This document shows positions 27,282-40,566 of a DNA stretch of 40,566 nt, in pieces. The notes below the pieces were generated by a model. The model was given only the letters and a program-made list of their open reading frames with translations, ran no database searches and was not told where the DNA came from. A program made the position numbers and the translations under genes. Position 1 is the stretch's first letter; every line of letters starts with the position of its first letter. Origin of the DNA: Cellulomonas cellasea (lineage in GTDB: Bacteria; Actinomycetota; Actinomycetes; Actinomycetales; Cellulomonadaceae); assembly GCF_006538745.1 (NCBI RefSeq), contig NZ_BJLR01000032.1:1-40566 (forward strand), read 5' to 3'.

Positions 27282-28538
27282 TCAGGCGAGCGTCGCCAGC
27301 TCCTGCGCCGACACCTCACCAGCGACCTCGGGGGGCAGCCGGACGCCCGAGTGCCGCGGCGCGAGCTCGCTCTGCAGCACGAGCGCCGCGGCTCCGACGG
27401 CGGCCGCCTCGGGCGCGTTCGTCGAGATCGTGACCCGCACGGGGTGGCTCGCGCGTGCGAAGAACGAGCGGCTCAGCTGCTCCTGCACCGCGGGCAGGTA
27501 GAGCGACCCCGCGAGCGCGAACGCGGGCCCGGTCAGCACGACGAGCTCGAGGTCCATCACGTTGGCCAGGGTCTGGGCCGCGACGCCGAGGTAGCGGGCC
27601 GACCTCGCGAGGATCTCGGCCGCGACGGGGTCCCCGCTCAGCGCGGCGCGGGCGACCGCCGCGAACTGCGCGGACACGGGCCGGTCGGCGCCGCCGAGGT
27701 CGAGGCCGCGCGCCTGTGCCTGCGCGACGACGGCCGCCGGCCCCGCCAGGGCTTCGACGCACCCCCGGCTCCCGCACCAGCACTCCGGGCCGTCGATGTC
27801 CACGCAGATGTGCCCGACCTCGCCCGCGTTGGAGCTCGCGCCGCGGTACACGGTGCCGTTGACAAGGATGCCCGCGCCGATGCCGGTGCCCATGTAGAAC
27901 GCGGCGAACGCGGACGTGGTCTCAATGCCGCCGGCCCAGTACTCGCCGATCGCGGCGGCGGTCGCGTCGTTGTCGAGCAGGACCGGCACGCCGACGGCGT
28001 CCTCGAGCGCGTCGCCGAGCGGGAAGTCGGCCCAGCGCCGCATGTTGGGCGGGGTCAGCACCATGCCGACCGACGCGGTGATGGGCCCGGGCGAGACGAC
28101 GCCGAGCCCGAGCACGCGCGTGCGGTCGATGCCGACGCGCGTGATCATGCCGTCGATCTCGGCGGCGATGCGCGCGACCACCTCGCGGGGGTCGTCGGCG
28201 CCGGCGCCGGGCTTGCGCCAGCGCGCGACGACCGCTCCCCCGAGGTTCGCGAGCACGTAGGTGATGCCCGCGTGGTCGAGGTGCACGCCGACGGCGAACC
28301 GCGCGGACGGGTCGAGCTGGAGCAGCATGCGCGGCTTGCCGCCGGTCGACTCGGCGCGCCCGGCCTCGACGACGAGCCCGTCGTTCATGAGGCGGCGCAC
28401 GACGGTCGAGATCGTCGCGCCGGTCAGGCCCGTGGCCCGCGTGAGCTCGACGCGGCTGATCGTGCCCGCGGCGCGGATCACGTCGAGGATCGCCGCGCGG
28501 CTGCTCGTGTGCGCCATCCCGAGGTTGGCACTGCTCAC
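27282..28538 (-). CDS. ROK family transcriptional repressor
   Basis: This 418-residue protein pairs an N-terminal winged helix-turn-helix (about 10-70: ILDVIRAAGTISRVELTRATGLTGATISTVVRRL) with a sugar-kinase-like ROK domain. The ROK zinc motif is intact in ECWCGSRGCVEALAG, and the sugar-site region VLLDNDATAAAIGEYW is present. Such proteins (NagC, Mlc, XylR types) release DNA when they bind a sugar. The GTG at 28538 is chosen for the strong AGGAGAG 7 bases upstream; a frame open to 28643 lacks a site. It is divergent from the ABC importer, whose promoter carries the 30-bp element. It is therefore the best candidate to bind that element and its twin before the beta-mannosidase gene. Confidence 0.9.
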   Translation of the reverse strand: MSSANLGMAHTSSRAAILDVIRAAGTISRVELTRATGLTGATISTVVRRLMNDGLVVEAGRAESTGGKPRMLLQLDPSARFAVGVHLDHAGITYVLANLGGAVVARWRKPGAGADDPREVVARIAAEIDGMITRVGIDRTRVLGLGVVSPGPITASVGMVLTPPNMRRWADFPLGDALEDAVGVPVLLDNDATAAAIGEYWAGGIETTSAFAAFYMGTGIGAGILVNGTVYRGASSNAGEVGHICVDIDGPECWCGSRGCVEALAGPAAVVAQAQARGLDLGGADRPVSAQFAAVARAALSGDPVAAEILARSARYLGVAAQTLANVMDLELVVLTGPAFALAGSLYLPAVQEQLSRSFFARASHPVRVTISTNAPEAAAVGAAALVLQSELAPRHSGVRLPPEVAGEVSAQELATLA

Positions 28539-28648: not shown

Positions 28649-28678
28649 TTGACTTACTTTGTTCGGCTGCCTAAGAAT
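28649..28678 (+). promoter_or_regulatory. Promoter/operator element, copy 1 (ABC importer)
   Basis: The 30 bases consist of TTGACT (28649-28654), a 17-base spacer and TAAGAAT (28672-28678), which is close to the sigma-70 type consensus. It contains CTTA and TAAG as inverted ends 15 bases apart, a plausible ROK operator overlapping the promoter. It differs from copy 2 at two positions only and lies about 95 bases before the importer start. Confidence 0.75.
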
Positions 28679-28772
28679 GCCACACAGAGCGGGGTCGACC
28701 GACGCCCCCGCCGGGCAAGGACCGCCCACCCCCGCCGGCACGCCGAGGTGCCGGGCCGAGAGAGGATCAACG

Positions 28773-30101
28773 ATGTTCCCTCACGCACGACGCACGCGAC
28801 TGCTGGCCGTCGCCGCGATCGCCAGCACCGTCGCTCTGACCGCCGCCTGCTCGGGCGGCGGTGAGTCCGCGGAGACCAACGAGGACGGCACCCCCTCCGG
28901 CGACCTCCTGGTCCTCACGTGGCGCACCGACCTCCTCGAGGACGGCACGTTCGACGAGTACGCCGAGCGGTTCAACGAGGAGTACCCCGACGTCACCGTC
29001 GAGTTCGAGGGCCTGACGGACTACGAGGGCGAGGTCCGCACCCGCATGAACACCGAGGACTACGGCGACGTCCTCGGCGTCGTCGGAACCGTCACCCCCG
29101 ACCAGTTCCCCGACTTCTTCGAGCCCCTCGGCGACGTCGAGGAGCTCGAGCAGGAGTACCGCTTCCTGCGCGACAAGGCGTTCGAGGGCAAGGCCTACGG
29201 CATCCCGGTCGTCGGCAACACCCAGGGCATCGTCTACAACACGACCGTCTGGGAGGAGGCCGGCGTCACCGAGCCGCCGACCACGCCCGCGGAGTTCGTC
29301 GACGCGCTCAAGGCCATCAAGGCGAACGACCCCGAGGTCGTCCCGCTCTACACGAACTACAAGGACGGCTGGCCGCTCACGCAGTGGGAGGGCCACCGCG
29401 GCGAGATCACCGCGAACCCCAACTACGTCAACGAGATGGCGCAGTCCGACGCACCGTGGACCGAGGGCACCGACCACTACGTGATCGACTCGCTCCTGTG
29501 GGACGTCGTCAACCAGGGCCTGACGGAGAAGGACCCCACCACGACGAACTGGGAGGAGTCCAAGAGCCTCCTCGCGAACGGCAAGATCGGCTCGATGGTG
29601 CTCGGCTCGTGGGCCATCCAGCAGATGCAGCAGGCCGCTGAGGACGCCGGCACCGGCGCGGACACGATCGGCTACCTCCCGTTCCCGCACCAGGTCGACG
29701 GGAAGTTCTACGCGCAGGTCGGTGGCGACTACAACCTCGCGATCAACAAGAACTCGGACAACAAGGTCGCGGCCCGCGCCTGGATCGACTGGTTCAACAC
29801 CGAGTCCGGCTACGCCGAGGCCAACGGCGGCCTGTCGCCGCTCAAGGAGGGCCCGACGCCCGAGACCCTCAAGGACTTCGAGGCACTCGGCGTCGAGTAC
29901 CTCGAGCTCACGCCGGCCCCCGCCGGCAAGGAGAGCCTGTTCGCGGACATCGACTCGGAGTCCGAGGTCGGCACCAACACGCCCGACTACCGCCAGCGGA
30001 TCGTCGACGCCGCGCGCGGCGCCTCGGGCGAGACCAAGGACGAGATCTTCGAGGACCTGAACTCGAAGTGGGCGGCCGGTCGCGCCGCCGTCGGGGGCTG
30101 A
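28773..30101 (+). CDS. Sugar ABC transporter substrate-binding lipoprotein (CUT1 type)
   Basis: This 442-residue lipoprotein captures oligosaccharides outside the membrane. The signal peptide (FPHARRTRLLAVAAIAST) ends in the lipobox LTAAC, with the lipid-bearing cysteine at 26, followed by SGGG and an acidic stretch. The mature part is a type 1 extracellular solute-binding protein: FNEEYPDVTVEFEGLTDYE, GKAYGIPVVGNTQGIVYNTTVWEEAG and a C-terminal segment with ARAWIDWF. The ATG at 28773 has GAGAGGA about 6 bases upstream; frames open before it run through the promoter. It is first in the importer operon. Flanking genes suggest manno- or galacto-oligosaccharides as ligand, an inference only. Confidence 0.93.
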   Translation: MFPHARRTRLLAVAAIASTVALTAACSGGGESAETNEDGTPSGDLLVLTWRTDLLEDGTFDEYAERFNEEYPDVTVEFEGLTDYEGEVRTRMNTEDYGDVLGVVGTVTPDQFPDFFEPLGDVEELEQEYRFLRDKAFEGKAYGIPVVGNTQGIVYNTTVWEEAGVTEPPTTPAEFVDALKAIKANDPEVVPLYTNYKDGWPLTQWEGHRGEITANPNYVNEMAQSDAPWTEGTDHYVIDSLLWDVVNQGLTEKDPTTTNWEESKSLLANGKIGSMVLGSWAIQQMQQAAEDAGTGADTIGYLPFPHQVDGKFYAQVGGDYNLAINKNSDNKVAARAWIDWFNTESGYAEANGGLSPLKEGPTPETLKDFEALGVEYLELTPAPAGKESLFADIDSESEVGTNTPDYRQRIVDAARGASGETKDEIFEDLNSKWAAGRAAVGG

Positions 30102-30165
30102 CGGACCGGCTCGGTCCAGGACGAGGAGGTCGGTGACCCGTGGTGACAGGGCAGGAGAGCGTGCG

Positions 30166-31125
30166 ATGGCCGGCGTGAGCGACGTGGTCCGGGCGGAAGC
30201 CGCCGGGACGAGGAACGAGGCCGGCCTGCTGCCTGCCACCGCGAGGAAGCCGCGCGGCGGGTGGGGCTGGCGAGGGACACCGTACGTGTTCCTCGCCGTC
30301 CCGCTCGTCCTGCTGGTGGTGTTCACCTACCTGCCGGTGGTGAACATGTTCTGGTACTCCCTGACGTCCTGGGACGGGCTCGACAAGACCAAGGAGTTCG
30401 TCGGGCTCGACAACTACGTCGCGGTGTTCACGCGGCCCGAGCTGTTCCGGGTCTTCTACGTGAGCCTGTACTACTTCGCGGCGTCGTTCGTGCAGATGGC
30501 GCTCGCGCTGTACTTCGCGACGGTGCTCAGCTTCAGCACGAGGTTCCGGAACCTGTTCAAGGGGATCCTGTTCTTCCCCTACCTGATCAACGGCGTCGCG
30601 ATCGCCCTGATCTTCGTGTTCTTCTTCAAGCCGGACGGGACGCTCGACTCGATCCTGGCGCTGTTCGGCGCGGAGAACCTGCAGCAGCAGTGGCTCGGCA
30701 ACCCGGACATCAACAACATCTCGCTCGCGAGCACGTCGGTGTGGCGGTACATGGGCCTGAACTTTGTGCTGTTCCTCGGCGCGATCCAGTCGATCCCCGG
30801 CCAGCTGTACGAGGCGGCGGAGCTCGACGGGGCCAGCCGGTTCCAGCAGTTCCGGTACATCATCGCGCCGAGCATCAAGCCGATCATCGGCCTGTCGTTC
30901 ATCCTGGCGATCTCCGGGAGCCTCGCGGTCTTCGAGATCCCGTTCATCATGACCGGCGGCGCGAACGGGACCGCGACGTTCGTCATCCAGACCGTCGACA
31001 TGGCGTTCGAGAGCCTCAAGGTCGGTCTCGGCTCCGCGATGGCGGTCATCCTGCTCGTCATCGTGCTGGTCGTGACGTGGGTCCAGCGCAAGGTCGTCCC
31101 CGAGGAGAAGGTGAACCTGACGTGA
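30166..31125 (+). CDS. Sugar ABC transporter permease (MalF/UgpA type)
   Basis: This 319-residue membrane protein forms half of the import channel. It has about six membrane helices, beginning with YVFLAVPLVLLVVFTYLPVV, and the cytoplasmic EAA loop EAAELDGASRFQQFRYIIAP that contacts the ATPase. The start at 30166 (MAGVSDVV) is chosen because AGGAGAG lies 6 bases before it. A GTG at 30133 also has AGGAGG nearby, but at a short spacing. It follows the binding-protein gene by 64 bases and overlaps the next gene by 4. Confidence 0.93.
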   Translation: MAGVSDVVRAEAAGTRNEAGLLPATARKPRGGWGWRGTPYVFLAVPLVLLVVFTYLPVVNMFWYSLTSWDGLDKTKEFVGLDNYVAVFTRPELFRVFYVSLYYFAASFVQMALALYFATVLSFSTRFRNLFKGILFFPYLINGVAIALIFVFFFKPDGTLDSILALFGAENLQQQWLGNPDINNISLASTSVWRYMGLNFVLFLGAIQSIPGQLYEAAELDGASRFQQFRYIIAPSIKPIIGLSFILAISGSLAVFEIPFIMTGGANGTATFVIQTVDMAFESLKVGLGSAMAVILLVIVLVVTWVQRKVVPEEKVNLT

Positions 31126-31943
31126 GCTACGTCGCCAAGACCACCAAGTACGCGACGCTCGTCCTCGCGTGCCTCGTGACGCTGCTGCCCATCTCGGTGA
31201 TCGTCATGGCGTCCCTCAAGACGAACCAGGAGTTCTACAACACGGGCCCGTTCGACGCCCCGGGGAACTGGCTCAACCTCGAGAACTACGTGACGGCGTT
31301 CACGCGCGGCAAGATGGTGCAGGGCTTCGCCAACACCGCGTTCATCCTGCTGTTCTCGGTGGTCGGCACCATCCTGATCGGGACCATGGCGGCCTACGCG
31401 ATCGACCGGTTCGAGTTCCGGCTCAAGAAGACCGTGATCGCGCTGTTCCTGCTCGCGACCCTCGTGCCGGGCGTCACGACGCAGGTCGCGACGTTCCAGA
31501 TCGTCAACAACCTCGGGCTGTACAACACCCGGTGGGCCGCGATCGCGCTGTTCATGGGCACCGACATCGTGTCGATCTACATCTTCGTGCAGTTCCTGCG
31601 CGGCATCCCCAAGGAGCTCGACGAGGCCGCCACGCTCGACGGCGCCAACCACCTGACGATCTACCGGACGATCATCCTGCCGCTGCTCAAGCCGGCGATC
31701 GCGACGGTCGTCATCATCAAGGGCATCGCGGTGTACAACGAGTTCTACACGCCGTTCCTGTACATGCCGGGGCGCGATCTCGGGGTCATCTCGACGTCGC
31801 TGTTCCGGTTCAAGGGACCGTTCGGGGGGCAGTGGGAGGTCATCGCGGCGGGCGTGATCATCGTGCTGATCCCGACGCTGCTGGCGTTCCTCGCGCTGCA
31901 GAAGTACATCTACAACGGCTTCACGTCGGGCGCGACGAAGTAG
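31122..31943 (+). CDS. Sugar ABC transporter permease (MalG/UgpE type)
   Basis: This 273-residue partner permease has about six membrane helices. The first is YATLVLACLVTLLPISVIVM; a typical periplasmic stretch TNQEFYNTGPFDAPGNWLNLENY follows. The EAA loop is DEAATLDGANHLTIYRTIILP. The GTG at 31122 overlaps the preceding stop (GTGA). No ATPase gene follows; the operon ends at a very strong hairpin. As in other actinobacteria, a shared MsiK-type ATPase encoded elsewhere probably powers the importer. Confidence 0.94.
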   Translation: MSYVAKTTKYATLVLACLVTLLPISVIVMASLKTNQEFYNTGPFDAPGNWLNLENYVTAFTRGKMVQGFANTAFILLFSVVGTILIGTMAAYAIDRFEFRLKKTVIALFLLATLVPGVTTQVATFQIVNNLGLYNTRWAAIALFMGTDIVSIYIFVQFLRGIPKELDEAATLDGANHLTIYRTIILPLLKPAIATVVIIKGIAVYNEFYTPFLYMPGRDLGVISTSLFRFKGPFGGQWEVIAAGVIIVLIPTLLAFLALQKYIYNGFTSGATK

Positions 31944-32048: not shown

Positions 32049-34271
32049 TCAGCCCACGCGCGTCGCCCGGACCAGCACGAGCCGCTCGGAGAAGAGCACG
32101 GGCGCCTCGACGCCCACGTCCTCCAGCACCCGCCCGGGCAGCGTGACGCCCTCCGGCGTCCACCACGGCAGGTGCAGGTACCCGCTCGCGACACCGTCGA
32201 CGACGTGCGCCGGTGCCTGCGGGCGCACGAGGTACAGCGCGTCGGGGTCGAGCCCAGGCAGCGGCAGGCGGCCCGTCGGGCTCTGCGTCGACGTCGCGGT
32301 CGCGACGACGGCGAACAACGCGTCCGAGCCGTCCTGCGCGACGACCCCGTGCACCCCGTAGGCCGGGTCGGCGACGTCCGCGTGCACCGACGTGCCGGTG
32401 TGCAGCAGCCCGCGCAGCTCCTTGTACAGCGCGATCCACTCCGCGAGCTGCGCCCGCTGCGCGTCGTCGGCCTCGCGCAGGTCCCACTCGATGCCGAGGT
32501 GCCCGAACAGCGCGGTCCCCGCCCGGAACTCCAGCGGGTGCCGCCGCCCGGTGCTGTGCGCGGCGCCCGAGCCGACGTGCGCGCCGAGGATCTCGTAGGG
32601 CACGAGCAGGTTCGTCCACCGCTGGATCTGCTGGCGCTCGAGGGCGTCGATGCAGTCCGAGGTCCAGACCCGGTCGGTCCGCTCGAGGATCTCGAGGTCG
32701 ACGCGCCCGCCGCCCGACGAGCAGGACTCGATCTCGACCGCGGGGTGCCGCCGGCGCAGCTCGTCGAGCAGCCGGTAGACGGCGAGCGTCTGCGCGTGCA
32801 CCCCGGCGGTGCGCCGCGGCCCGTGACCGGCGTCGACGAGGTCGCGGTTGTGGTCCCACTTGAGGTACGCGATCGGGTACTCGGTGAGCAGCGCGTCGAG
32901 CCGCTCGAGGATGTAGGCGGACGCCCCGGGCTCGGCGAGGTCGAGCACCTGCTGGTGGCGCGCAGCGCGCGGCAGCCGGTCGGACGCCTGCAGCATCCAC
33001 TCGGGGTGCGCGCGGGCGAGGTCGGAGTCCGGGTTGACCATCTCGGGCTCGACCCACAGCCCGAACTCCATCCCGAGCCCGCGCACGTGGTCGACGAGCG
33101 GTCCCAGGCCGTCGGGCCACACGTCGGCCGAGACGTACCAGTCGCCGAGGCTCGTGGTGTCGTCGCGGCGCCCGCCGAACCAGCCGTCGTCGAGCACGAA
33201 CCGCTCGACGCCGACGGCCGCGGCCGCGTCGGCGAGGTCGGTGAGCCGGCCGAGGTCGTGCTCGAAGTACACGGCCTCCCAGGTGTTCGCGACGACCGGG
33301 CGCGGGGAGCGCGGGTGGTGCGCGCGTGCCCGGAACCAGCGGTGGAACCGCGCGGAGACGTCGTCGAGCCCGCGCCCGTACGCGCCGACGACCCAGGGGC
33401 TCGTGTAGCTCTCCCCCGCGCCGAGCCGGACCTCCCCGGGCAGCAGCAGCTCGCCGCCCCCGAGCAGGCCCGGGTTGTAGTGGCTGCGCTCGGCGAGCGT
33501 CCGGTGGTTGCCCGACCACGCGGTGTGCAGCCCCCACACCTCGCCGCGGCGGTTGCCGAAGCCGGGCGTCCCCGCGGCGAGCAGGAACGCGGCGTCGTAG
33601 CCGGTGCGCCCGCGGCGGTTCTCGCGCAGCCGGGTGCCGTGCGTGAAGTCGGTGCGCTGCGGGCTGCGCTCGCGCAGGTGCCGGCCGGTGAAGTCGAGCA
33701 GCTCGGTCGCGCGCGCCGGGACGGGCAGCGTCAGCAGCAGCCCGTCGAGCGTGAACGTGCCGTCCCCGGTGCTCGTCACCCGGGCGCGCTCGCGCACGAG
33801 CCCCGAGGCGGTGAGCTCCAGCACGAGCCGGAGCCCGAGCCCGGCGGACGCGTCGTCCGCGTCGACCACGAGCACGCTCGAGCCCGTCGCGTCCGCCGGC
33901 GTGGCGAGCGCCGCGCGCCGGACCGCGAAGGCGGTCGAGAAGTCGGCGCCGTCCCGGTGGCCGGTGAGCCCGGGCGTCCCGAGGAAGCCCGCGGACTGCT
34001 CGGGCAGCACCGCGATCTGGACCTCGCCGTCAACCGGGAACCCGAGCGGCACCGGGCGGGACGCGAGCGCGAGCGCGCCGAGCGAGGCGTCGGAGAGCGC
34101 GCCCAGGTCGGCGCCCCAGTGCAGCACGCGGGGCAGCGTCCCGCCGGTGAGGTCGACGACGAGGCTCACCCCGGCGGCGCGCAGGTGCACGACCCGGTCG
34201 TGCGGGTCGTGCGCGCCCTCGGGCGGGCCGGTGGGCGGGAACGTCAGGGACAGGGCCTCGGCGGCATTCAC
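32049..34271 (-). CDS. Alpha-galactosidase, GH36
   Basis: This 740-residue enzyme removes alpha-galactosyl residues, for example from galactomannan fragments or raffinose sugars, in the cytoplasm (no signal peptide). It has the N-terminal beta domain (WGADLG, FSTAFAVRR), the barrel with VLDDGWFGGRRDD and FGLWVEPEMVNPDSDL, the nucleophile in YLKWDHNRD (about D473) and the acid/base in WTSDCIDALERQQIQRW (about D539). The cysteine-containing EIESCSSGGGRVD is also typical. The start is the GTG at 34271, with AAGGAG 11 bases away. It is divergent from the beta-mannosidase gene, and the two activities together strip galactomannan oligosaccharides. Confidence 0.95.
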   Translation of the reverse strand: MNAAEALSLTFPPTGPPEGAHDPHDRVVHLRAAGVSLVVDLTGGTLPRVLHWGADLGALSDASLGALALASRPVPLGFPVDGEVQIAVLPEQSAGFLGTPGLTGHRDGADFSTAFAVRRAALATPADATGSSVLVVDADDASAGLGLRLVLELTASGLVRERARVTSTGDGTFTLDGLLLTLPVPARATELLDFTGRHLRERSPQRTDFTHGTRLRENRRGRTGYDAAFLLAAGTPGFGNRRGEVWGLHTAWSGNHRTLAERSHYNPGLLGGGELLLPGEVRLGAGESYTSPWVVGAYGRGLDDVSARFHRWFRARAHHPRSPRPVVANTWEAVYFEHDLGRLTDLADAAAAVGVERFVLDDGWFGGRRDDTTSLGDWYVSADVWPDGLGPLVDHVRGLGMEFGLWVEPEMVNPDSDLARAHPEWMLQASDRLPRAARHQQVLDLAEPGASAYILERLDALLTEYPIAYLKWDHNRDLVDAGHGPRRTAGVHAQTLAVYRLLDELRRRHPAVEIESCSSGGGRVDLEILERTDRVWTSDCIDALERQQIQRWTNLLVPYEILGAHVGSGAAHSTGRRHPLEFRAGTALFGHLGIEWDLREADDAQRAQLAEWIALYKELRGLLHTGTSVHADVADPAYGVHGVVAQDGSDALFAVVATATSTQSPTGRLPLPGLDPDALYLVRPQAPAHVVDGVASGYLHLPWWTPEGVTLPGRVLEDVGVEAPVLFSERLVLVRATRVG

Positions 34272-34385: not shown

Positions 34386-34415
34386 TTGACTTACTTTGTT
34401 CAGTTGCCTAAGAAT
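34386..34415 (+). promoter_or_regulatory. Promoter/operator element, copy 2 (beta-mannosidase)
   Basis: TTGACT (34386-34391), a 17-base spacer and TAAGAAT (34409-34415) match copy 1 at 28 of 30 bases; both differences are in the spacer. It lies about 120 bases before the beta-mannosidase start and may also influence the divergent alpha-galactosidase gene. Confidence 0.75.
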
Positions 34416-34533
34416 TGCCCCACCAGGGTACCTGCCTCGACGACGCCGCTCACGCGGCCACGTCGTCCGACGGGCGCACGCGACGATGCGTGCACCGCGC
34501 GCGGGACCTCCGAGACCCAGGAGCGGGCCGACG

Positions 34534-37056
34534 ATGATCACGCAGGATCTGCACGAGGGCTGGACGCTGCGCGCGGCAGGCGGCCCCGTCCCCGACGCGA
34601 TCGCCGGCCGGACGATCCCCGCGACCGTCCCCGGGAGCGCGCACACCGACCTCCTGGCCGCAGGCCTGATCCCGGACCCGTACCTCGACCGCAACGAGGC
34701 CGAGCTCGTCTGGGCGCACCGGGCCGACTGGCAGTACGACCTGACCCTCACGACGCAGGAGCCGACGCCCGACGAGCGCGTGGACCTGGTCTTCGAGGGC
34801 CTCGACACGGTCGCCACCGTCTCGCTCGACGGCGCCGTCGTCGCCCGCACCGCGAACCAGCACCGCTCCTACCGCGTCGACGTGCGCGAGGGCCTGACCT
34901 CGGGCGAGCACGCGCTCTCGGTGCACTTCCGCTCGGCGCTCGAGCATGCCGAGGCCGAGCGCGAGCGCCTCGGCGCACGGCCCGCCGCGTACGACCACCC
35001 GTTCAACATGGTCCGCAAGATGGCGTGCAGCTTCGGCTGGGACTGGGGCCCCGACCTGCAGACCGCCGGGATCTGGAAGCCCGTGCGGCTCGAGCGCTGG
35101 CGCACCGCACGCCTCGCCCAGGTCCGCCCGCTCGTGACCGTGGACGCGACGGGGACCGGCCACGTCGACGTGCACGTCGACATCGAGCGCTCGGGCCTCA
35201 CGAGGTCCGACGACGCGACGCTCGTCCTGCGCGCGACCGTGCGCGACGCCGAGGCGACCCTGACCCTCGACGCGGGTGCGACGTCCGCGGTCGTCCGGCT
35301 CGAGGTGCCCGACGCCCCGCTGTGGTGGCCCGCCGGGCACGGCGCGCAGCCGCTCAGCGACCTCGACGTGACGCTCGACGTCGCCGACGCCGGCGGGGCC
35401 CCGGGCGGCGCGCCGCTCGACAGCTGGCACCGACGCATCGGCTTCCGCACGGTCGAGCTCGACACGTCGACCGACGAGCACGGCACCGCCTTCACCTTCC
35501 GGATCAACGGCCGCCCGGTCTTCGCCAAGGGCGCCAACTGGATCCCCGACGACCACTTCCTCACGCGCATCACCCGCGAGCGCCTCGCCCGCCGCGTCGA
35601 CCAGGCCCTCGGGGCGCACCTCAACATGCTCCGCGTCTGGGGCGGCGGGATCTACGAGACCGAGGACTTCTACGACGTCTGCGACGAGAAGGGCATCCTC
35701 GTCTGGCAGGACTTCCTCCTCGCGTGCTCCGCGTACCCCGAGGAGGACCCGCACTGGTCCGAGCTCGAGGCCGAGGCCCGCGAGAACGTCGCGCGCCTCA
35801 CCCCGCACCCCTCGCTCGTGCTGTGGAACGGCGGCAACGAGAACCTCTGGGGCTTCATGGACTGGGGCTGGCAGGAGAAGCTCGAGGGCCGCACGTGGGG
35901 CCACCGCTACGCCACCGAGCTCTTCCCGCGGGTGGTCGCCGAGCTCGAACCGACGCGGCCCTACTCCGACGGCAGCCCGTACTCCCCCGGCTTCGCGCTC
36001 GACGTCGTGCACCCCAACGACCCCGACCACGGCACGCACCACGAGTGGGAGGTCTGGAACCGGGTCGACTACACCGCCTACCGGGCGGACGTGCCGCGGT
36101 TCTGCTCGGAGTTCGGCTTCCAGGGACCTCCGGCGTGGTCGACGCTGCAGCGCGCGGTGCGCAACCCCGACGGCACGCCGCTCACCAAGGCCGACCCCGT
36201 CTTCCTGCTGCACCAGAAGGCCGAGGACGGCAACGGCAAGCTCGACCGCGGCCTCGCGCCCCACCTCGGGGTTCCGGAGGACTTCGCCGACTGGCACTGG
36301 GCCACCCAGCTCAACCAGGCCCGCGCCGTCGCGTACGCGATCGAGCACTACCGCTCGTGGTGGCCCCGGACCGCGGGGGCGATCGTCTGGCAGCTCAACG
36401 ACTGCTGGCCGGTGACGTCGTGGGCCGCGGTCGACGGCGACGAGCGACCCAAACCGCTCTGGTACGCGCTCCGCAACGCGAACGCCCCGCGGCTGCTCAC
36501 GGTCCAGCAGCGCGACGGGCACGAGGCGCTCGTGGCCGTCAACGACACCGCCGACCTGTGGCGCGCGACGATGCACGTCTCGCGCCAGCGTCTCGACGGC
36601 ACCCCGCTCGCGGAGGCGACGATGGACGTGCGCGTCGGCGCCCGCTCGGTGACCGCGCTGCCCCTCCCCGCCGACATCGCGACGCCCGACGACCCCACCG
36701 CCGAGGTCCTGGTGGCGCGGCTCGACGGGGTCCTGACGGTGCACACATGGGTCGAGGACGTCGACCTCGCGCTCGACCCGGCTCCGCTCGAGGCCACCGT
36801 GACGGGCGTCGAGGGCGGCTACCGGGTCGACGTCGTGGCGCGCTCGCTCGCCCGCGACGTGACGATCCTCGCCGACCGCGTCGACCCGGCGGCGACCGTC
36901 GACGAGGCCCTGATCACCGTGCCGGCCGGCGGACGCGCGTCGTTCCGCGTGCGGACGAGCGCCCCGCTCAGCGCCGCGGACCTGACCGCACCGGCGGTGC
37001 TCCGGACGGCGAACGACCTGGCACCCCTGCGCGCGGCCGTCGAGACCCCGGCCTGA
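34534..37056 (+). CDS. Beta-mannosidase, GH2
   Basis: This 840-residue cytoplasmic enzyme releases mannose from the non-reducing end of beta-mannosides. The N-terminal sugar-binding domain holds TVPGSAHTDLLAAGLIPDPY and the KMACSFGWDWGPDL stretch typical of beta-mannosidases. The acid/base is in LVLWNGGNENLWGF (about E436) and the nucleophile in RFCSEFGFQGPP (about E526). IVWQLNDCWPVTSW is another family mark. The ATG at 34534 has AGGAG about 10 bases upstream. It is preceded by copy 2 of the 30-bp element and followed, 60 bases on and in the same frame, by the HTH-less LacI-type gene. The family and activity call is strong. Confidence 0.95.
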   Translation: MITQDLHEGWTLRAAGGPVPDAIAGRTIPATVPGSAHTDLLAAGLIPDPYLDRNEAELVWAHRADWQYDLTLTTQEPTPDERVDLVFEGLDTVATVSLDGAVVARTANQHRSYRVDVREGLTSGEHALSVHFRSALEHAEAERERLGARPAAYDHPFNMVRKMACSFGWDWGPDLQTAGIWKPVRLERWRTARLAQVRPLVTVDATGTGHVDVHVDIERSGLTRSDDATLVLRATVRDAEATLTLDAGATSAVVRLEVPDAPLWWPAGHGAQPLSDLDVTLDVADAGGAPGGAPLDSWHRRIGFRTVELDTSTDEHGTAFTFRINGRPVFAKGANWIPDDHFLTRITRERLARRVDQALGAHLNMLRVWGGGIYETEDFYDVCDEKGILVWQDFLLACSAYPEEDPHWSELEAEARENVARLTPHPSLVLWNGGNENLWGFMDWGWQEKLEGRTWGHRYATELFPRVVAELEPTRPYSDGSPYSPGFALDVVHPNDPDHGTHHEWEVWNRVDYTAYRADVPRFCSEFGFQGPPAWSTLQRAVRNPDGTPLTKADPVFLLHQKAEDGNGKLDRGLAPHLGVPEDFADWHWATQLNQARAVAYAIEHYRSWWPRTAGAIVWQLNDCWPVTSWAAVDGDERPKPLWYALRNANAPRLLTVQQRDGHEALVAVNDTADLWRATMHVSRQRLDGTPLAEATMDVRVGARSVTALPLPADIATPDDPTAEVLVARLDGVLTVHTWVEDVDLALDPAPLEATVTGVEGGYRVDVVARSLARDVTILADRVDPAATVDEALITVPAGGRASFRVRTSAPLSAADLTAPAVLRTANDLAPLRAAVETPA

Positions 37057-37103
37057 CCGGCGTCGACCCGGAGGGGCGGCGGGGCGGTGCGCACCGGCAG
37101 GTC

Positions 37104-37109
37104 TAGGCT
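37104..37109 (+). promoter_or_regulatory. -10 box of a leaderless promoter for the LacI-type gene
   Basis: TAGGCT, 7 bases before the GTG at 37117. It would let this gene be made separately from the beta-mannosidase transcript. Confidence 0.5.
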
Positions 37110-37116
37110 GGCGGAC

Positions 37117-37977
37117 GTGAAGAGCAGGGCGGACGCCGTCGGACTCGTGCTGGCGCGCCCCGCCCGCATGCTCGGTCTCGAGCCCTTCTTCATGGAGCTC
37201 ATCGCCGGGATCGAGGAGACGCTCGCCGCCGACTCGCGCTCGCTCCTGCTGCACGTGGTCCCCGACCACGAGGCCGAGATCCGCGCGTACCGGCGCTGGG
37301 GCCAGGGCGAGATGGTCGACGCGGTCGTCGTGGTCAACCTCGTCGACGACGACCCGCGCCTGCCCGTGCTCGTCGAGCTCGGGATCCCGACGGTCGTGGT
37401 CGGCGGCCCCCGCGGTGACCTGCCGTTCTCCAACGTCTGGATCGACAACGCGCAGGTCACGCGCGACGCCGTCCGGCACCTCGTCGCGCTGGGGCACCGC
37501 GACATCGCCCGGGTCAGCGGCCCGCACGCGCTCGCGCACACCCAGGACCGCACGCACGCCTTCGTCGGCGAGTGCGAGCGGCTCGGCGTGCACGGCACGG
37601 TGCTCGAGGGCGACTACACCGAGGCGTCGGGCACACGGGCGACGCGCGCGCTGCTCGGCCGCCGGGGCGCCCCGTCCGCGATCGTCTACGACAACGACGT
37701 GATGGCCGTCGCCGGGCTCGGCGTGGCCGGCGAGATGGGGGTCCCCGTCCCCGAGCGGCTGTCGCTCGTCGCCTGGGACGACTCGGCCCTGTGCCGGCTC
37801 GCGCACCCGCCGCTGTCCGCGATGAGCCTGGACGTGCACGCGATGGGCACCCAGGTGGCCGACTGCGTGCTCAACGTCGTCGCCGGCGGGCCCGTCACCT
37901 CCTACGAGGCGAAGCTCCCGCGCCTCGTGACGCGCGGCACGACCGCGGCCTTCGCCCCGGCACCCGCAGCGGACTGA
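37117..37977 (+). CDS. LacI-type ligand-binding protein lacking the DNA-binding domain
   Basis: This 286-residue protein consists of a complete LacI/periplasmic-binding-like sugar sensor: ADAVGLVLARPARMLGLEPFFMELIAGIEE, GIPTVVVGG, VWIDNAQVTRDAVRHLVALGHRDIA, AIVYDNDVMAVAGLGVAGEMGVPVPERLSLVAWDDS and PPLSAMSLDVHAMG. It begins VKSRADAVG, the junction that in normal LacI proteins follows the hinge helix. The roughly 55-residue helix-turn-helix is absent. The in-frame stop of the beta-mannosidase at 37054 leaves room for at most 20 more residues. There is no signal peptide, so it is not a transport binding protein. It may modulate another regulator or be a remnant; function unknown. Confidence 0.88.
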   Translation: MKSRADAVGLVLARPARMLGLEPFFMELIAGIEETLAADSRSLLLHVVPDHEAEIRAYRRWGQGEMVDAVVVVNLVDDDPRLPVLVELGIPTVVVGGPRGDLPFSNVWIDNAQVTRDAVRHLVALGHRDIARVSGPHALAHTQDRTHAFVGECERLGVHGTVLEGDYTEASGTRATRALLGRRGAPSAIVYDNDVMAVAGLGVAGEMGVPVPERLSLVAWDDSALCRLAHPPLSAMSLDVHAMGTQVADCVLNVVAGGPVTSYEAKLPRLVTRGTTAAFAPAPAAD

Positions 37978-38113: not shown

Positions 38114-40297
<2,184 letters not shown>

Positions 40298-40322
40298 CCT
40301 GAACCGCCCCACGACGCACTCG

Positions 40323-40350
40323 AGGCGCCGGTCCCCAGGGACCGGCGCCT
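40323..40350 (+). terminator. Terminator after glgB
   Basis: AGGCGCCGGTCCC (40323-40335) and GGGACCGGCGCCT (40338-40350) form a perfect 13-bp stem with a 2-base gap, followed by TCGTCGTCTCGTTCG. It lies 25 bases after the glgB stop. Confidence 0.88.
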
Positions 40351-40441
40351 TCGTCGTCTCGTTCGATGGCTCGACCAGGCCAATGGGAGGCGGGGACCGG
40401 TCGGCCCATGCAACGCCTCGGCGCCCCGGCCCCACACGGGC

Positions 40442-40471
40442 GCGAAGCGCTGGCCTGCGAAGCGCTGGCCT
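40442..40471. repeat. 15-bp tandem repeat, two copies
   Basis: GCGAAGCGCTGGCCT occurs twice head to tail (40442-40456 and 40457-40471), followed by a partial third copy (GAAGCGC). Each unit holds the small palindrome AGCGCT. The rest of the stretch after the glgB terminator shows no gene that can be supported. Confidence 0.85.
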
Positions 40472-40566
40472 GAAGCGCACGAGCCCCGGCTGGCCTCCGC
40501 AGCGCACGGAGCACCGGAGGGAAGCCGCGAGAGGCATCACCGATACCGTGCACAAAGCCCCTGGAC

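Follow-up and report, generated by a model that had tools for sequence, protein, structure and literature searches.

We propose that a LacI-type ligand-binding protein lacking the helix-turn-helix (HTH) of its family may act as a cytoplasmic sugar sensor that works with a separate DNA-binding repressor of the ROK family encoded in the same locus, a reading to which we give a probability of roughly 0.6. Both genes lie in one 40,566-nucleotide stretch of DNA (the window), whose own proteins were the starting point of all searches. The comparative data suggest that a task normally handled by a single protein is here divided between the two, and searches of the open-licence PMC literature turned up no description of a LacI protein without HTH acting together with a ROK repressor.

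A LacI-type core without its DNA-binding half

The proposed sugar-sensing subunit is encoded at 37117..37977 on the plus strand, in a frame open from GTG 37117 to TGA 37975-37977 and giving 286 amino acids. The product matched Pfam Peripla_BP_3 (PF13377, 7.6e-29) and Peripla_BP_1 (PF00532, 2.5e-16), while the LacI HTH (PF00356) was absent from the same scan of the ORF and no other DNA-binding domain was found by Pfam in the protein. Its AF2 model (mean pLDDT 93.7, pTM 0.90) is a confident, complete core whose first strand spans residues 7-13, so that the model opens directly with this strand of the core; both the HTH and the hinge helix are missing. The best PDB fold matches were 4o5a (TMq 0.90), which also ranks first by sequence profile, and CelR-cellobiose 5ysz (TMq 0.86). 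The first-pass annotation, made from the letters of the window, had described a complete LacI ligand-binding core without HTH, and Pfam, the model and the PDB matches bear out that description.

The same annotation had placed the stop codon of the upstream glycoside hydrolase family 2 (GH2) gene 60 nt before the sensor start and had given the gene its own -10 box at leaderless spacing, and both claims held. The GH2 stop TGA lies at 37054-37056, and the -10-like box TAGGCT (37104..37109, plus strand) stands 7 nt before GTG 37117, in leaderless placement. Of the HTH-less genes at 60% identity or above, 59/61 have a TA...T box located 6-8 nt ahead of a possible start, compared with 4/1648 upstream start codons taken as background; over all HTH-less genes the figure is 67/110, the box being less frequent outside close relatives. 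An in-frame GTG at 37087 is an alternative start that would give 296 aa. Upstream of 37117 a profile scan gave no HTH match and, judging the alignment by eye, relatives have no common protein sequence there. Coupling to the GH2 gene is tight in one Streptomyces locus (L098), where the GH2 stop TGA is followed immediately by the GTG of the HTH-less gene.

For the census of relatives, duplicates were merged to leave 241 related genes (identity from ~40% upwards, with 300 nt or more of upstream sequence), in which the HTH was sought by a profile derived from Micromonospora-type relatives, in three forward frames up to 600 nt upstream. This divided them into 110 genes without and 131 with an HTH, overlapping loci never being in conflict, and the profile also found the HTH in 15/15 full-length paralogues of the window's genome tested. 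Close relatives with an in-frame HTH, which the first-pass annotation regarded as fatal to its proposal, did not appear: the three-frame scan of up to 600 nt upstream was negative for all 110 HTH-less genes, and each HTH-bearing relative examined is less than 60% identical to the window's sensor protein. An assembly slip was ruled out by a second genome (G005; L031/L167), in which a 98% identical copy on one contig has the same GH2-sensor junction, and an HTH hidden by a frameshift was rejected since the upstream sequence gave no HTH in any of the three forward frames. In one HTH-bearing relative (L350), the HTH and the ligand domain lie in different frames.

Comparison of the two forms (59 HTH-less and 63 HTH-bearing thinned rows) gave 46 positions conserved in both, among others W61, D79, R81, H141, R145, N193, D194 and W220-S223, which suggests that they bind the same class of ligand. 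P136 is invariant in the HTH-less rows only (59/59), a hint of altered allostery in this form.

The ROK repressor and its linkage to the proposed sensor gene

The proposed DNA-binding partner is a ROK-family repressor with a winged HTH, encoded at 27282..28517 on the minus strand (Pfam ROK 1.8e-50, HTH_24 9.3e-07) and divergent from a transporter operon. The latter encodes, on the plus strand and by Pfam, a sugar ABC transporter binding protein (SBP_bac_1, 28773..30101), permease 1 (30133..31125, start provisional) and permease 2 (31122..31943). It is followed on the minus strand by a GH36 alpha-galactosidase gene (Pfam Melibiase; 32049..34271, start provisional, with a GTG at 34269-34271 possible) and on the plus strand by the GH2 gene (34534..37056, Pfam Glyco_hydro_2_N2), directly upstream of the sensor gene. 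We take the GH2 enzyme to be a beta-mannosidase, following the first-pass naming, its substrate being putative.

Two copies of TTGACTTACTTTGTTCRGYTGCCTAAGAAT occur in the window, one before the transporter operon and one before GH2. The first, TTGACTTACTTTGTTCGGCTGCCTAAGAATG, is a ROK-operator-like promoter at 28649..28679 and the second lies at 34386..34416, both on the plus strand; in the window, no such copy precedes the sensor gene. A spaced pattern, used in place of a half-site motif that was too loose, gave 43 sites in 37/164 HTH-less loci versus 0/138 HTH-bearing loci, a count that leaves out 4 mixed loci and whose loci partly overlap and often come from related genomes, hence are not independent. 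From their place and co-occurrence, ROK presumably binds these operator-like sites.

The first-pass annotation had also suggested that the sensor might act on the ROK protein. As far as the genes are concerned, linkage now supports this suggestion; contact between the proteins is what we infer from it. In a family survey of 221 genomes, based on full lists of matches (139 sensor matches in 123/221, close ROK orthologues in 75/221), a ROK gene lay within 15 kb of 64/73 HTH-less genes read versus 1/47 HTH-bearing genes. A close ROK orthologue was within 15 kb of 58/139 matches, comprising 51 HTH-less genes, 6 outside the HTH reading and a single HTH-bearing gene, the second gene of L191, which stands beside an HTH-less gene. 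Another 22 family matches were read as HTH-less, and 13 of these have a more distant ROK within 15 kb. Ten of the 13 (L358, L363, L365, L368-L370, L372-L375) form divergent pairs with ROK at 95-228 bp and represent few independent cases since they come from close relatives; a more distant ROK also lies near L290 (~120 bp), L224 (136 bp) and G016 (2.7 kb).

Nine family HTH-less genes have no ROK within 15 kb. Among them, L168 and L171 have one 29.7 kb away, L036, L117 and L192 have one on another draft contig, and L193, L194 and L380 are second copies. The only HTH-less genome searched for ROK that has none at all is G062, a draft 89% complete. Such second HTH-less copies, found in some genomes, are ~63% identical; L380 was read over 0.8 kb upstream only. 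For the 47 HTH-bearing genes, the search for distant ROK genes covered 19 wide stretches and ~0.8 kb upstream in 27 others, and the 19 wide stretches yielded one match (32%, L240).

A class sample of 394 genomes gave ~120 matches (hand count), of which 67 were read, 16 as HTH-less and 51 as HTH-bearing. A ROK gene shared the contig, at no more than 12 kb, with 15/16 HTH-less genes, the remaining genome (G925) having it on another draft contig, versus 1/51 HTH-bearing genes, namely L304, beside an HTH-less gene. When all stretches were pooled, ROK lay within 15 kb of 54/58 HTH-less genes that had 6 kb or more of upstream sequence, versus 0/43 HTH-bearing genes for which the stretch reached at least 6 kb upstream as well as 5 kb downstream (Fisher p 2.7e-24, a value that ignores kinship and the ROK-guided choice of stretches). 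With any flank, the pooled counts are 75/110 versus 3/131; short stretches account for most of the 35 misses, and the three HTH-bearing exceptions (L191, L283, L304) each share a stretch with an HTH-less gene. Since many pooled stretches were drawn knowing the position of ROK, the family survey and the class sample are the fairer counts. Moreover, the HTH-less genes form one clade, so that kinship inflates all of these counts, and the association of HTH-less genes with ROK may be close to one evolutionary event. Across 42 loci, sensor and ROK distances still correlate after removal of GH2 distances (partial r 0.61, compared with 0.50 for sensor-GH2 and 0.23 for ROK-GH2), which is weak evidence for sensor-ROK pairing.

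Gene order (REARRANGEMENT) and asymmetry add to these counts. The ROK gene is upstream of and divergent from the HTH-less gene in 71/75 cases, at a distance of at least 4 kb in 45, less than 300 bp in 19 and in between in 7; four single other layouts complete the 75, and overall 21/75 pairs are less than 300 bp apart (distances between alignment ends). Neighbours vary around the pair, with GH2, GH36, or an ABC transporter without a GH2 match. In many HTH-less loci, the window included, ROK heads the operon and the LacI core lies elsewhere in the cluster, and in 18/20 family HTH-bearing loci it is the full-length LacI gene, read in the same direction, that heads a comparable operon of SBP and two permeases, with GH2 following in 16 of those 18. 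Of 45 Micromonospora-type HTH-bearing loci, 36 have GH2 on the opposite strand and 8 have none in the stretch.

At 10 loci the stretch has ROK but no HTH-less gene, a distribution that calls for 5 or more changes on the ROK tree. Genome-wide, 6/10 of these lone-ROK genomes have no sensor match at 1e-38, three (G204, G205, G208) have HTH-bearing matches only, and G064 has a separate ROK-sensor pair elsewhere; in the class sample, 7/23 genomes with a ROK match have no HTH-less match at the threshold used. Because ROK occurs alone and the sensor rarely does, the sensor seems to need ROK, while ROK does not seem to need the sensor.

Some single loci depart from the common layout. ROK and the HTH-less gene are adjacent on one strand in L295 (ROK ends at 1495, where the sensor begins), an operon-like arrangement, and in two genomes (L304, L310) a full-length relative of LacI type lies in tandem with an HTH-less gene, their starts ~1.2-1.3 kb apart. 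One Kitasatospora genome has a ROK-linked partial match without HTH (L282, ~475 nt aligned) and a separate full-length relative (L085). Downstream of the sensor, glgB was considered as a partner and rejected, since only part of the loci have it after the sensor gene, many Cellulomonas loci among them. Many Cellulomonas contigs stop 2-3 kb past the sensor gene; in two continuing assemblies, 5S and 23S ribosomal RNA genes come after glgB (L167:17554-18855; L174:18300-18828), so that these genes are the likely reason for the contig breaks, including the end of the window (40297-40566).

Other targets, other roles and the age of the HTH-less form

The best-surviving alternative, which we nevertheless consider rather unlikely, is a cytoplasmic sensor of the same pathway with another target (such as the ABC transporter, some enzyme or a regulator encoded elsewhere), ROK being near only through the shared sugar, since genes serving one substrate may stay linked even if their products form no complex. 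In its favour, a GH2 gene on the same strand lies within 300 bp upstream of 73/110 HTH-less genes versus 4/131 HTH-bearing genes, and around the second copies L193 and L194 neither ROK nor GH2 was matched over ~14 kb on the upstream side and 4 kb on the downstream side. The ROK proteins themselves also lend it something, as eight sugar and zinc residues are all kept in 59/64 paired and 10/10 lone ROK proteins. This does not bear out a loss of the ROK sugar pocket in the paired proteins, an idea we had considered, and implies that ROK may sense sugar without its partner. In L290:169-1422, a paired ROK beside an HTH-less gene, the zinc motif and the sugar-site E and H are lost. Against another target, ROK persists where the neighbouring enzymes change, at less than 300 bp in 21/75 pairs, and where HTH-bearing relatives stand by a similar transporter operon, ROK at 40% identity or more is found in 0/18 (L227-L244), L240 having the one weak 32% match.

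Mixed dimers with a full-length LacI-family repressor, with the HTH-less protein as a dominant-negative subunit, had been offered by the first-pass annotation as another outlet, and both forms do occur together in four fetched loci (L191, L283, L304, L310). In the window's genome, however, this idea went unsupported, the best full-length paralogue being 33% identical, and each of the 7/7 genomes in a genus survey, the window's own included, has a single sensor match at 1e-50; we hold mixed dimers to be very unlikely. We would put just as little weight on a protein that binds sugar without regulating anything, as a buffer or carrier, or that contacts DNA by itself in a novel way. The core does have a periplasmic sugar-binding fold (Pfam Peripla_BP), but inspection of the N-terminus by eye shows no apparent signal peptide, with the first strand from residue 7, a buffer would not be expected to be linked with a repressor, and the lack of any DNA-binding domain by Pfam speaks against direct contact with DNA.

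The history of the family bears on the remaining idea, a decaying regulator or truncated pseudogene. In a thinned tree of 105 rows obtained by a quick method, 48/48 HTH-less rows fall on one side with moderate support (SH-aLRT 88), with one change of HTH label versus 34.9 for shuffled labels, and in an earlier, more careful tree of 119 rows they form two groups with two label changes. HTH-less members come from Cellulomonas, Occultella, Pseudactinotalea, Humibacillus and Streptomyces, and from genomes of Phytohabitans, Paractinoplanes and Virgisporangium, the clade thus reaching Micromonosporaceae. Given this span of genera, the HTH loss is either ancient or was spread by transfer, and most simply the HTH was lost once, in an old ancestor. 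Compared with its closest copy (dS 0.24), the gene has a dN/dS of 0.055, and none of 250 sampled pairs reaches 1; these values are rough in GC-rich genes and distant pairs and serve as an upper check. Decay, which the first-pass annotation had kept as an option and for which one can say that HTH-bearing relatives and paralogues imply a loss, is rejected as exceedingly improbable, the HTH-less form being an old clade present in several families (one in the 105-row tree, two groups in the 119-row tree) and under purifying selection, with start and box conserved in 59/61 closer genes.

A proposed two-protein switch and its known counterparts

We propose a model in which basal transcription would supply the sensor protein, and an oligosaccharide, probably a manno-oligosaccharide, would enter via the ABC transporter. 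The sugar-loaded sensor would then bind the ROK dimer and lower its grip on the operators at 28649 and 34386, whereupon the transporter and GH2 genes would be switched on. The sugar sensed is probably a mannoside. ROK may in addition read a second sugar, since its own sugar and zinc residues are kept, which would make the system a two-input switch. Sensor-ROK contact and the sign of control are both what we infer from the genes; the sign is the least certain step, and we prefer an anti-repressor to a co-repressor because loci that lack the sensor gene still keep ROK.

On a wider scale, we would lay even odds that LacI cores and ROK proteins constitute a split class of one-component repressor in Actinomycetia, in which two unrelated families bring two sugar inputs to one operator, following a single HTH loss after which the LacI half has had only ROK as partner. 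If true, this would mean that LacI, the textbook one-chain sugar switch, has had its sensor and DNA-binder re-partnered between families. It would likewise give a role to genes annotated only as a binding domain and provide a natural two-part biosensor for plant-sugar breakdown. A vague annotation is thereby turned into a direct question, namely the effect of the sensor on ROK binding at two named sites.

Among known systems, the LacI/GalR regulators (4o5a of Bifidobacterium animalis and CelR-cellobiose 5ysz) resemble the sensor in their ligand-binding fold (TMq 0.90 and 0.86), and 46 core positions are shared with its HTH-bearing relatives; however, their defining DNA-binding half, HTH and hinge helix, is missing from the sensor. 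Mlc of E. coli is a ROK-family protein, and the window locus likewise has a ROK protein with a winged HTH (ROK 1.8e-50, HTH_24 9.3e-07). According to PMC3901232, Mlc is sequestered by EIICB-Glc and has no small-molecule induction, so that a repressor is controlled by a sugar-reporting protein, as proposed here. Unlike that membrane PTS transporter, the putative partner here is a soluble LacI core, and most paired ROK proteins keep their sugar residues (59/64). In Cereibacter sphaeroides, CerN is a LuxR homologue without HTH whose interaction with CerM takes place in the presence of the signal (PMC11655674), and it offers an HTH-less relative of a regulator with a DNA-binding partner, as proposed here. 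CerM and CerN are of one family, whereas the LacI core and ROK are of unrelated families. AraR is a fusion of LacI-type and GntR-type domains. The existence of such a fusion, in which a LacI-type sensor domain is served by a GntR-type DNA-binding domain, is reported in PMC4052901 and shows a LacI-type ligand domain with another DNA-binding unit, as we propose for the sensor and ROK. There, the domains are joined in one chain, whereas here they are encoded by separate genes.
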